Assembly: GCF_018069705.1 (NCBI RefSeq)
Contig: NZ_CP072943.1
Span: forward strand, 744,001-808,000
From: Aminithiophilus ramosus
GTDB taxonomy: Bacteria; Synergistota; Synergistia; Synergistales; Aminithiophilaceae
Length of the DNA: 64,000 nt
Direction of reading: 5' to 3'
A program made the position numbers and the translations under genes. Numbering within the stretch: the first letter of the stretch is position 1; each line of letters starts with the position of its first letter. A model generated the notes under the pieces. It saw nothing but the letters and a program-made list of their open reading frames with translations. It searched no databases and was not told the DNA's origin. Shown here piece by piece: positions 15,643 through 17,716 of this stretch.

Positions 15643-16167
15643 ATGGAAACAGGAAAAGCCCTCGTCGGCGTCGTTTTGGGTTCCAAATCGGATCTCGCCC
15701 TGGCCGTCAAGATCGCCGAAACCTTCGACAGCCTGGCCATACCCTTCGAGGTCACCGTGGCCTCGGCGCACCGAACGCCGGAAGACGTGACCGCCTACGC
15801 CCGCAGGGCCCGTTCGCGGGGGCTGAAGGTGCTCATCGGCGTCGCCGGCCTGGCGGCCGCCCTCCCGGGCTGCCTCGCCGCCGAAACGACCCTTCCCGTC
15901 ATCGGACTGCCCGTCGGAGGAGGCGCCCTGGGAGGCATGGACGCTCTCCTGGCCATTGCCCAGATGCCTCCGGGCATACCGACGGCCACCGTCGGAATCG
16001 GGTCGGGCCAGAACGCCGCCCTTATGGCGGCGCGCATTCTGGCCTTGGACAACGACCGCATTCAGGAGGCCCTCTGGACCTTCCACTCCCAGGCGGCCGA
16101 TAAAGTGCGGGCCTCGCGAAAGGAGCTGGAGCTCCTCCCCCTGGCCCCCGATGAGGCCTTCCGCTGA
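15643..16167 (+). CDS. purE: 5-(carboxyamino)imidazole ribonucleotide mutase / AIR carboxylase
   Basis: Gives CAIR for PurC. 174 aa. GSKSDLALAV near residue 11, the SAHRTPE motif with the catalytic histidine near 45, and GGALGGMDALLAIAQMPPG near 90 are visible. No purK lies in the operon, so either purK is elsewhere or this is a class II PurE that uses CO2 directly; the sequence alone does not let me decide. Last gene of the purine operon. Confidence 0.94.
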   Translation: METGKALVGVVLGSKSDLALAVKIAETFDSLAIPFEVTVASAHRTPEDVTAYARRARSRGLKVLIGVAGLAAALPGCLAAETTLPVIGLPVGGGALGGMDALLAIAQMPPGIPTATVGIGSGQNAALMAARILALDNDRIQEALWTFHSQAADKVRASRKELELLPLAPDEAFR

Positions 16168-16212
16168 CCGACGTCTTTCCTCATTCGAGCCTCCGTCAGG
16201 ACAACGGAGTAG

Positions 16213-16248
16213 AATGGAGCGGGAGGGTGAAAACCCTCCCGCTCCATT
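16213..16248. terminator. Perfect 16-bp hairpin with GAAA loop after purE
   Basis: AATGGAGCGGGAGGGT, loop GAAA, and its exact complement. The following bases are ATTCGCG-like with no T-tract, so it is not a canonical intrinsic terminator in either direction. It ends 16 bases before the radical SAM start codon and may end purine transcripts or protect the RNA. Confidence 0.55.
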
Positions 16249-16264
16249 CGCGAGGTGATCTCCC

Positions 16265-17644
16265 ATGACGGAACGACGCCCCTCCTGGGCGGAACAGCTG
16301 AAGGCCCGCCATGGCGGACCGGTGAGAAAGATCGCTCTCGACGCGGGTTCCGGATGTCCCAACAGAGAGGGCCTTCTCCGAGGCGGCTGTCTTTTCTGCG
16401 ACGAAAGGGGGGGCGGCAGCGGCGCCTTTCTCCGGGGCCTCTCCCTGGCCGATCAGATCCGATCGGGCCTTCATGTGGCGCGTCGACGCTTCGGGACCGA
16501 CCGCGTCATCCTCTACTTTCAGAGTTACTCGGCCACCAACGTCCCCCTCGAGACCTTCCGCGCCACCTTGGGAGAGGCCCTGATCCTGGCCGAGGAGGAG
16601 GGAGCCTCCGTCGTCGGCCTCTCCGTCGGGACTCGCCCCGATCTCGTGCCCGACGCCGTGCTCGACCTGCTCTCCTTCTGGACCCAAAAGGGACTGGAGG
16701 TCTGGCTGGAACTCGGCGTCCAGACTCTCGACGAAAAGGGACTCCTTTTCCTGAGGCGGGGCCACGACGGCGCCTCCTCTCTCGACGCCTGCCGCCGGGC
16801 CCGACACCGGAACCTCAAGGTCTGTGCCCACCTCATCGCCGGACTTCCCGGCGAGAAGCCTCACCAGCTCGCCCTTTCGGCGGAGCGCCTCTTCCGGGAG
16901 GGCGTTGCGGGCTTCAAGTTCCACCCCCTTCACGTCCTGAAAGGGACGGCCTTGGAGCTCCTCTACAAGGGAGGGACCTTCCAGCCCCTGACTCTGGAAG
17001 TCTACGTCGATAGGGTGGTTCTGGCTCTCGAGGCCCTCCCCGACGAGATCGAGATCCAGCGTCTCACCGCCGACGCCAGGGAGCCTCACCTCGTCGCACC
17101 CGGCTGGATCGCCGAAAAACCCCGGTTTCTTCGAGCTCTGGCCGATCGCCTCGACGCTCCCCTCTCCCCTCTGATCCGCCCCCTCAATCCTGAGGAAATC
17201 GCCGACGCGGCGGCTCTCGTCCGAGAGACCTTTCTCGCCGAAGTGGCCCCTCTTTTTCCCGAAGAGGGCATCGAAACGTTTCTCTCCTTTGTCGACGAGG
17301 AGGCCCTCGCCGGACGCCTCGCCTCGGGACACCTTCTCTTCGCCGCCGTAAGGAAGGGGCGGCGGACGGGCGTAGCCGAGCTGACGCCCTCGGGCCATCT
17401 GGCCCTTCTTTTCGTCGACCTTTCGGATAGTCGCCGGGGGACGGGAAGGGCCCTCGTCGAGGCCGTCCGGGAGTCTGCCCTCTCTCTCGAGGCCAGACCT
17501 GAGACGATAACCGTCAACGCCTCGCCCAACGCCGCAGCCTTTTATCGCCGTCAGGGCTTCGTCGCCTGTGGAGAGGAGCGGGAACGACAGGGCATCCGCT
17601 ATCGCCCGATGGCCCTTTCCCTGACGGGCCCTCCCCTTTGCTGA
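16265..17644 (+). CDS. Radical SAM protein of the YhcC/YtqA type fused to a GNAT acetyltransferase domain
   Basis: 459 aa. Residues 1-300 are a radical SAM domain of the Elp3-like YhcC (TIGR01212) kind: CPNREG followed by GGCLFC gives Cys31, Cys42 and Cys45, and the YFQSYSATN and GLSVGTRPD strands follow. Residues ~305-455 are a GNAT fold with LIRPLNPEEIADA, the acetyl-CoA loop region RRGTGRALVEA and AAAFYRRQGFV. The order (radical SAM, then GNAT) recalls Elp3, which modifies tRNA wobble uridine, but the radical SAM half is of the YhcC family, whose substrate is unknown to me. ATG 16265 follows GAGGTGATC. Confidence 0.85.
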   Translation: MTERRPSWAEQLKARHGGPVRKIALDAGSGCPNREGLLRGGCLFCDERGGGSGAFLRGLSLADQIRSGLHVARRRFGTDRVILYFQSYSATNVPLETFRATLGEALILAEEEGASVVGLSVGTRPDLVPDAVLDLLSFWTQKGLEVWLELGVQTLDEKGLLFLRRGHDGASSLDACRRARHRNLKVCAHLIAGLPGEKPHQLALSAERLFREGVAGFKFHPLHVLKGTALELLYKGGTFQPLTLEVYVDRVVLALEALPDEIEIQRLTADAREPHLVAPGWIAEKPRFLRALADRLDAPLSPLIRPLNPEEIADAAALVRETFLAEVAPLFPEEGIETFLSFVDEEALAGRLASGHLLFAAVRKGRRTGVAELTPSGHLALLFVDLSDSRRGTGRALVEAVRESALSLEARPETITVNASPNAAAFYRRQGFVACGEERERQGIRYRPMALSLTGPPLC

Positions 17645-17661
17645 AAAAGGCTGCCGAAAGC

Positions 17662-17706
17662 AGAAGGGCGGAAGCGGGGACCTAAAGGCCCCGCTTCCGC
17701 CCTTCT
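17662..17706. terminator. Long GC-rich hairpin between convergent genes
   Basis: AGAAGGGCGGAAGCGGGG pairs exactly with CCCCGCTTCCGCCCTTCT around a short loop. It lies between the radical SAM gene and livF, which converge, so it may serve both. No T-tract on either side. Confidence 0.6.
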
Positions 17707-17716
17707 GACGGGCCGA

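Follow-up and report, generated by a model that had tools for sequence, protein, structure and literature searches.

The gene at 16265-17644 of the window, the stretch of 64,000 nucleotides of Aminithiophilus ramosus that we analysed, joins a radical SAM protein of the TIGR01212 family to a GNAT acetyltransferase. It was shown to be one real gene, in which both domains lie above their family cut-offs. Both component families were already known, and their joining in one genus is the variant. We suggest that the product consists of two self-contained enzymes in one chain, a GNAT of the free-standing type having been appended to a TIGR01212 protein in one genus, and we give this reading about an even chance. 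The gene is a single open reading frame with an ATG start, and its genome is a single contig of 3,108,337 bases. The features of the locus are the following.

15643-16167, plus strand: purE-type gene directly upstream, the last of a run of pur-type genes (open reading frame)
16212-16249, plus strand: perfect 17-bp hairpin in the spacer that separates purE from the fusion gene; it stops immediately ahead of that gene's ribosome-binding site (predicted fold)
16265-17644, plus strand: fusion gene, TIGR01212 radical SAM protein and GNAT, 459 amino acids in one frame (open reading frame; TIGR01212, PF04055, PF16199 and PF13673 above their cut-offs)
16352-16876, plus strand: radical SAM core, residues 30-204, with Cys31, Cys42 and Cys45 (PF04055, 43.6 bits, cut-off 29.5)
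16907-17152, plus strand: Radical_SAM_C domain, residues 215-296, common to YhcC, YtqA and Elp3 (PF16199, 82.2 bits, 2.9e-23)
17159-17245, plus strand: inter-domain junction, residues 299-327, the least conserved part (identity between fusions)
17246-17623, plus strand: GNAT acetyltransferase domain of the PF13673 type, residues 328-453 (100.4 bits, cut-off 23.6, 9.7e-29; structural match to 2fiw)
17429-17446, plus strand: SRRGTG, residues 389-394, which we take to be the acetyl-CoA-binding loop of the GNAT, a probable role (sequence; both glycines invariant in alignments A1 and A3)

The first-pass annotation of this DNA had assigned the front half to the YhcC/YtqA type, and the TIGR01212 model agrees with it, covering residues 9-297 at 242.7 bits (cut-off 180, 4.6e-72). 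The same model gave 247.8 and 196.8 bits in the two other fusion species, and among the comparison proteins 472.9 bits for YhcC and 464.4 bits for one Anoxybacillus YtqA. The cysteines had been placed correctly at residues 31, 42 and 45, and all three were invariant in an alignment of 11 sequences (A2) that included E. coli YhcC and Firmicutes YtqA. The LxVGTRPD strand, which had also been claimed, was found in the window protein as GLSVGTRPD, and the back half is a GNAT as had been proposed. The family had been described as one of unknown function, and this has to be corrected. In NCBIfam release 20, TIGR01212 is named tRNA modification radical SAM protein MnmL/YtqA, and the table of a review lists MnmL beside MnmC for nm5s2U34 (PMC12548931).

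That the two halves lie in one frame, with no sign of assembly error, was confirmed in other genomes. A second complete genome, CP074691 (Synergistota bacterium strain L-13, 3,196,753 bases), encodes a protein for which the search printed 100% identity (1012.7 bits, against 1014.8 for the self-match), and its fusion coordinates agree with those of G066, a genome assigned to this species. The fusions of G002 and G001, both of which are MAGs, lie on contigs JAESII010000009 and JAHDQY010000009 respectively, and the window protein is 58% and 54% identical to those of the two other fusion species. The identical frame and junction in the second complete genome and in the two other species, together with a dN/dS of about 0.16-0.39 in the GNAT region (dS near saturation), argue against a frameshift or assembly artefact, and we reject this explanation as having a negligible probability. 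Between the window protein and that of G002, identity fell from 68.6% in the radical SAM core to 58.3% for PF16199, 47.6% for the GNAT and 27.6% for the junction. The junction was 17.2% and 27.6% identical to those of the other two fusions, compared to 46.8-68.6% in the domains.

The fusion is the addition of one genus, the relatives of which have the radical SAM half alone. Among 185 Synergistota genomes, 38 carried the radical SAM half (E up to 1e-30) and four of these carried the fusion (G000, G066, G001 and G002, all of one genus); in the other 34 the radical SAM half had no match beyond residue 309. It had been argued that relatives in which the halves are split into genes with independent contexts would speak against the fusion. 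This came half true, because the radical SAM half does occur alone, often in the same neighbourhood. All three sampled species of the genus had the fusion, and the layout was seen nowhere else among the genomes searched. As candidates for further Synergistota fusions, the long open frames of G042 (414) and G138 (543) were rejected because they are open upstream of the radical SAM half and have no GNAT behind it, and that of G184 (356) because it is too short for a GNAT.

Contigs and plasmid records were scanned for fusions beyond the genus, with other phyla covered indirectly; fusions whose GNAT is more diverged may have escaped these scans. A two-motif contig scan with GNAT alignment returned nine loci, three of which were the fusions of this genus (L049-L051); the remaining six had no radical SAM half in the frames at the match, L052 being cut by the contig end and the L056 frame resembling a chance match. 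The plasmid records, many of the matched ones being chromosomes filed as plasmids, gave 31 matches, of which 25 were to the radical SAM half (none past residue 285), five to the GNAT and one to Elp3. Viral contigs contained one YtqA-like locus and one weak GNAT locus. The former (L077:806-1762, on a contig classed as viral, IMGVR_UViG_2728369029_000001) is an intact gene of 318 amino acids and is perhaps host DNA.

In a tree of 28 rows, the 17 Synergistota rows were split from the 11 others (YhcC, YtqA, Bacteroidota and other) at 100/100, and the TIGR01212 proteins of this phylum form a deep branch of their own. The three fusion species formed a clade (96/97) within the standalone Synergistota radical SAM proteins, and the window protein fell outside the YtqA clade. 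It belongs to TIGR01212, and its presumptive identity as an MnmL is carried over from the family name. We compared 15 loci, namely the window locus and 14 from other bearers of the radical SAM half, with 12 of the 34 unfused loci among them. The radical SAM gene adjoined purD/purE-type genes in 10 of the 15 (three fused loci and seven of the 12 unfused ones); the pur gene names are presumptive ones, assigned from the sequences and not from a family search. The unfused gene had no GNAT of this type beside it among the open reading frames of at least 80 amino acids at the 12 standalone loci. The placement in the tree, the common purE-side locus and the lack of a GNAT beside the unfused genes indicate that a gene already in place most likely gained the GNAT at its end in the ancestor of the genus. 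Derivation from a standalone radical SAM gene at the same locus is supported by the tree and by gene order. The hairpin at 16212-16249 resembles a terminator of the purine operon or a site that controls the fusion gene. In G001 (L003), a hairpin of different sequence followed by a T run lies at the same position. In G002 the interval before the fusion gene is about 30 bases long and contained no hairpin.

Elp3 is an enzyme with radical SAM and GNAT parts that uses acetyl-radical chemistry, and the fusion had been described as mirroring it. The order of the domains and the radical SAM fold bear this out. Archaeal Elp3 consists of PF23613, PF04055, PF16199 and a GNAT, and the window protein repeats the last three in order. 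The likeness did not hold for the protein as a whole. On the Elp3 model (TIGR01211), the window protein reached 69.5 bits against a cut-off of 350, over residues 101-271 only, and thus stopped before the GNAT; archaeal Elp3 reached 794.9 bits, YhcC 67.6 and a YtqA 64.7, and some standalone relatives scored as high as or above the window protein. With E values up to 1 admitted, ELP3_N (PF23613), which archaeal Elp3 has, did not appear among the matches of the window protein. The fused GNAT had no significant sequence match to archaeal Elp3 (best E 0.96), and a profile of the fused GNATs found PDB 2fiw (7.9e-15). Membership in Elp3 was ruled out by the score, the lack of ELP3_N and the GNAT comparison. 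Elp3 was above its cut-off in none of the 61 relatives' genomes.

A structure was predicted from an alignment of four sequences, one of which was the YtqA-like sequence from the viral contig (pLDDT 85.1, pTM 0.87, residues 29-57 under 50). The top 11 Foldseek hits were all Elp3 chains, aligned over 488-524 columns (counting gaps) at an rmsd of 17.5-19.3 A for the whole alignment. In VIA-align, 10 of the 11 Elp3 rows ended by residue 300 and one (5l7l) at residue 364, with an rmsd of 2.6-3.3 A. Elp3 matched on the radical SAM fold at Z 18-22 (6ia8, Z 21.2, 2.7 A, 254 residues), and 2fiw matched on the GNAT (Z 21.2, 2.6 A, 155 residues). The predicted model matches Elp3 mainly on the radical SAM part and 2fiw on the GNAT, with no superposition of the whole protein. 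The packing of the domains in this model would differ from that of Elp3, their orientation being that of a shallow (4-row) prediction. We read the Elp3-like arrangement as a convergence, not as an Elp3.

The same type of GNAT was found in 17 of the 185 Synergistota genomes (E up to 1e-10). Thirteen of the 17 are not fusion bearers, and only one of the 13 (G024) also has the radical SAM half. Seven of the 13 have the GNAT fused in a different way, as the N-terminus of a protein that continues as an EFR1-type ferredoxin. These seven genomes belong to another Synergistota family (L101/L109 in G137, L103 in G136, L104 in G126, L105 in G130, L106 in G127, L107 in G124 and L108 in G135), and their GNAT heads frames of 436-474 amino acids in which a flavodoxin-like stretch and then two 4Fe-4S motifs follow. 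Two of the frames were scanned and matched EFR1 family ferrodoxin at 125.8 and 107.5 bits (cut-off 75). Here the GNAT is joined to an electron-transfer protein, in a fusion distinct from that of the window. The GNAT of our fusion retains most of the signature of its relatives from Bacteroides, Monoglobus and Synergistota, and most of the residues common to the fused GNATs and the aligned relatives belong to this family signature. The fused GNAT carries a net charge of -3, 0 and +1 in the respective species, and judged by this charge there is no sign of RNA binding. Free-standing PF13673 GNATs, such as PDB 2fiw of Rhodopseudomonas palustris, have the same GNAT type and signature residues but are not joined to a radical SAM protein.

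The two halves have not changed at the same pace in every species. In G001, a MAG in which sequence errors are not fully excluded, 11 of the 60 radical SAM columns that are invariant in 12 standalone rows were changed, compared to one in G002 and two in the window species (Fisher p 0.004 and 0.016 for the excess over the other fusions). With the 83 columns that are invariant in 14 rows, the changes were 18 in G001 and five in each of the other two fusions. Private changes in the GNAT were level (seven in G001, six in G002), and the neighbour genes purN, purH, purE and purD were without such an excess (1, 7, 3 and 6 in G001; 2, 4, 4 and 11 in G002; 1, 6, 4 and 5 in the window). Residues were lost from the radical SAM half of G001 by changes such as G41D, G51D, Y88H, G151D and G166D, with the GNAT intact (L003:1492-2856 / L051:2038-3399), and its PF04055 match was confined to residues 100-209. 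The three cysteines were kept, and dN against G002 was 0.245 with a dS of 1.16, the latter near saturation. This half appears to be changed or relaxed and not plainly dead. Hypermutation was considered and rejected as the source of the changes, since the excess of transitions relative to the neighbour genes was not significant (at the first two codon positions, 38:21 compared to 104:87, p 0.23). The changed radical SAM half beside an intact GNAT argues against a tight coupling of the two.

The setting in which an MnmL would work is present in the genome. MnmG was above its cut-off in 53 of 61 genomes, including that of the window (the other eight gave fragments or weak matches), and MnmA and MnmE were above theirs in the window genome. 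Because it encodes MnmG, MnmA and MnmE, the window species probably makes cmnm5(s2)U34, and by analogy with the family it may convert cmnm5(s2)U to nm5(s2)U. According to PMC9976899, MnmM converts nm5s2U to mnm5s2U, and MnmC is a fused oxidoreductase and methylase for U34 steps. The MnmM family (PF06962) was absent from all 61 genomes, that of the window included, with control matches in B. subtilis and L. lactis. The methylase family of MnmC was found in two of the 61, at 23 bits and in both cases without the radical SAM half, and the E. coli control was positive. The window species thus has no member of the known nm5U methylase families MnmM and MnmC to methylate nm5(s2)U. Among these 61 genomes were 28 of the 38 bearers of the radical SAM half, and both methylase families were absent in all 28, of which 25 are unfused.

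Known enzymes resemble the window protein in different parts. MnmC likewise performs two U34 steps in one chain, although with methylation rather than acetylation. MnmL/YtqA of Bacilli has the same radical SAM domain, PF16199 and three cysteines and is above the same curated cut-off, whereas the window radical SAM half lies on a separate deep branch at 33-35% identity to the three Bacilli rows, its genome lacks the MnmM family and its protein has the extra GNAT. E. coli YhcC is 38.5% identical to the radical SAM half and has the same domains, but it is without a GNAT and its genome has the MnmC methylase family. A methyltransferase gene directly follows ytqA in three Bacilli loci. No methyltransferase followed the radical SAM gene at the Anaerotruncus locus (Clostridia), and the open reading frame that was read behind the gene in Acetoanaerobium, judged by eye, was not one.

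If the window protein consists of two independent enzymes, the radical SAM half would hold a [4Fe-4S] cluster on Cys31, Cys42 and Cys45, use SAM and, as its family suggests, convert cmnm5(s2)U34 of tRNA to nm5(s2)U34. The GNAT half would N-acetylate an amine by ordinary direct transfer from acetyl-CoA, within its own active site, and would not take part in acetyl-radical chemistry of the Elp3 type; its acceptor would most likely be that of the wider GNAT family. We favour a job of its own for the GNAT. This is consistent with the domain scores, with the single clade of fusions within the standalone proteins, with purE beside both the fused gene and seven of the 12 unfused ones, and with the MnmG, MnmA and MnmE of the genome. 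The 13 of 17 GNAT-bearing genomes without this fusion, only G024 of them with the radical SAM half, and the seven in which the GNAT heads a ferredoxin-type protein point the same way, as do the uneven changes in G001 and the separate matches of the predicted model to Elp3 and 2fiw. However, the fusion was maintained across about 42-46% protein divergence, which a useless tether does not predict. The Synergistota radical SAM proteins also stand apart from YtqA on their deep branch, the MnmL reaction being carried over from the family name, and the half in G001, with its cysteines kept and its dN below a near-saturated dS, is not plainly dead.

Since the genome has MnmE, MnmG and MnmA but no known methylase, it is attractive to suppose that the fused GNAT acetylates the product, and an acetyl-CoA-linked modification of nucleic acid, as had been put forward from the first, is possible. 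In such a sequence, the radical SAM half would expose the amine of nm5(s2)U34 and the GNAT would acetylate it, so that the wobble uridine would end in an acetylaminomethyl form and would not be methylated by MnmM or MnmC, as is usual. GNATs typically accept primary amines, and the position of the methyltransferase after ytqA in the three Bacilli loci is taken here by the GNAT. We hold this sequence tentatively, as the weaker candidate, because 34 of the 38 Synergistota with the radical SAM half have no fused GNAT, and 25 of the 34, those that were tested, also lack both methylase families, so that an uncapped product seems to be tolerated. The two loci with no methyltransferase behind the gene, the GNAT that is not basic and keeps its general family signature, and its outlasting of a changing radical SAM half in G001 are also against it. 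A convergent enzyme with the chemistry of Elp3 itself, in which acetyl-CoA bound to the GNAT would feed an acetyl radical, started by the radical SAM half, onto C5 of the uridine, would fit the domain order and the 11 Elp3 chains at the head of the Foldseek hits. Yet the low and partial score on the Elp3 model, the missing ELP3_N, the GNAT unlike that of Elp3, the large rmsd over whole alignments compared to that of VIA-align, mostly in the radical SAM range, and the retention of this half by GNAT-less relatives make it the least credible of the enzymatic readings. Hardly more probable is a GNAT acceptor, be it a protein or a small molecule, that is linked to the purine pathway of the neighbouring genes. 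The fusion gene does come after pur-type genes, but the unfused gene is also there in seven of the 12 standalone loci, so the location belongs to the radical SAM half, and a hairpin parts the genes in two of the three fusion species. Two independent halves remain the reading that we prefer.

This fusion suggests that the Elp3 layout of radical SAM, its C-terminal domain and a GNAT evolved twice, the second time out of the related TIGR01212 family and with a different GNAT. It is unlikely, though it would be of consequence, that the fusion makes a new wobble-uridine mark; in that case the radical SAM half would strip cmnm5(s2)U34 to the amine, the GNAT would cap it with an acetyl group, and the supply of acetyl-CoA would feed decoding by a route apart from Elp3. 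A literature search returned no paper linking MnmL with radical SAM and tRNA and none linking YhcC with radical SAM, and the word acetylaminomethyl had no occurrence in one paper on radical SAM, GNAT and Elp3. The abstract of the MnmL paper by Jaroch et al. 2024 (J Bacteriol) is said to mention fusion proteins. About a fifth of the Synergistota searched (38 of 185) carry a TIGR01212 protein, and neither of the known nm5U methylase families was present in the 28 of these bearers that were tested.

Behind the fusion gene, between it and a convergent transporter gene, a long and nearly perfect inverted repeat occupies positions 17661-17707 of the window. The 86-base spacer that contains it folds at -54 kcal/mol, and the repeat is probably a terminator shared by the two genes.
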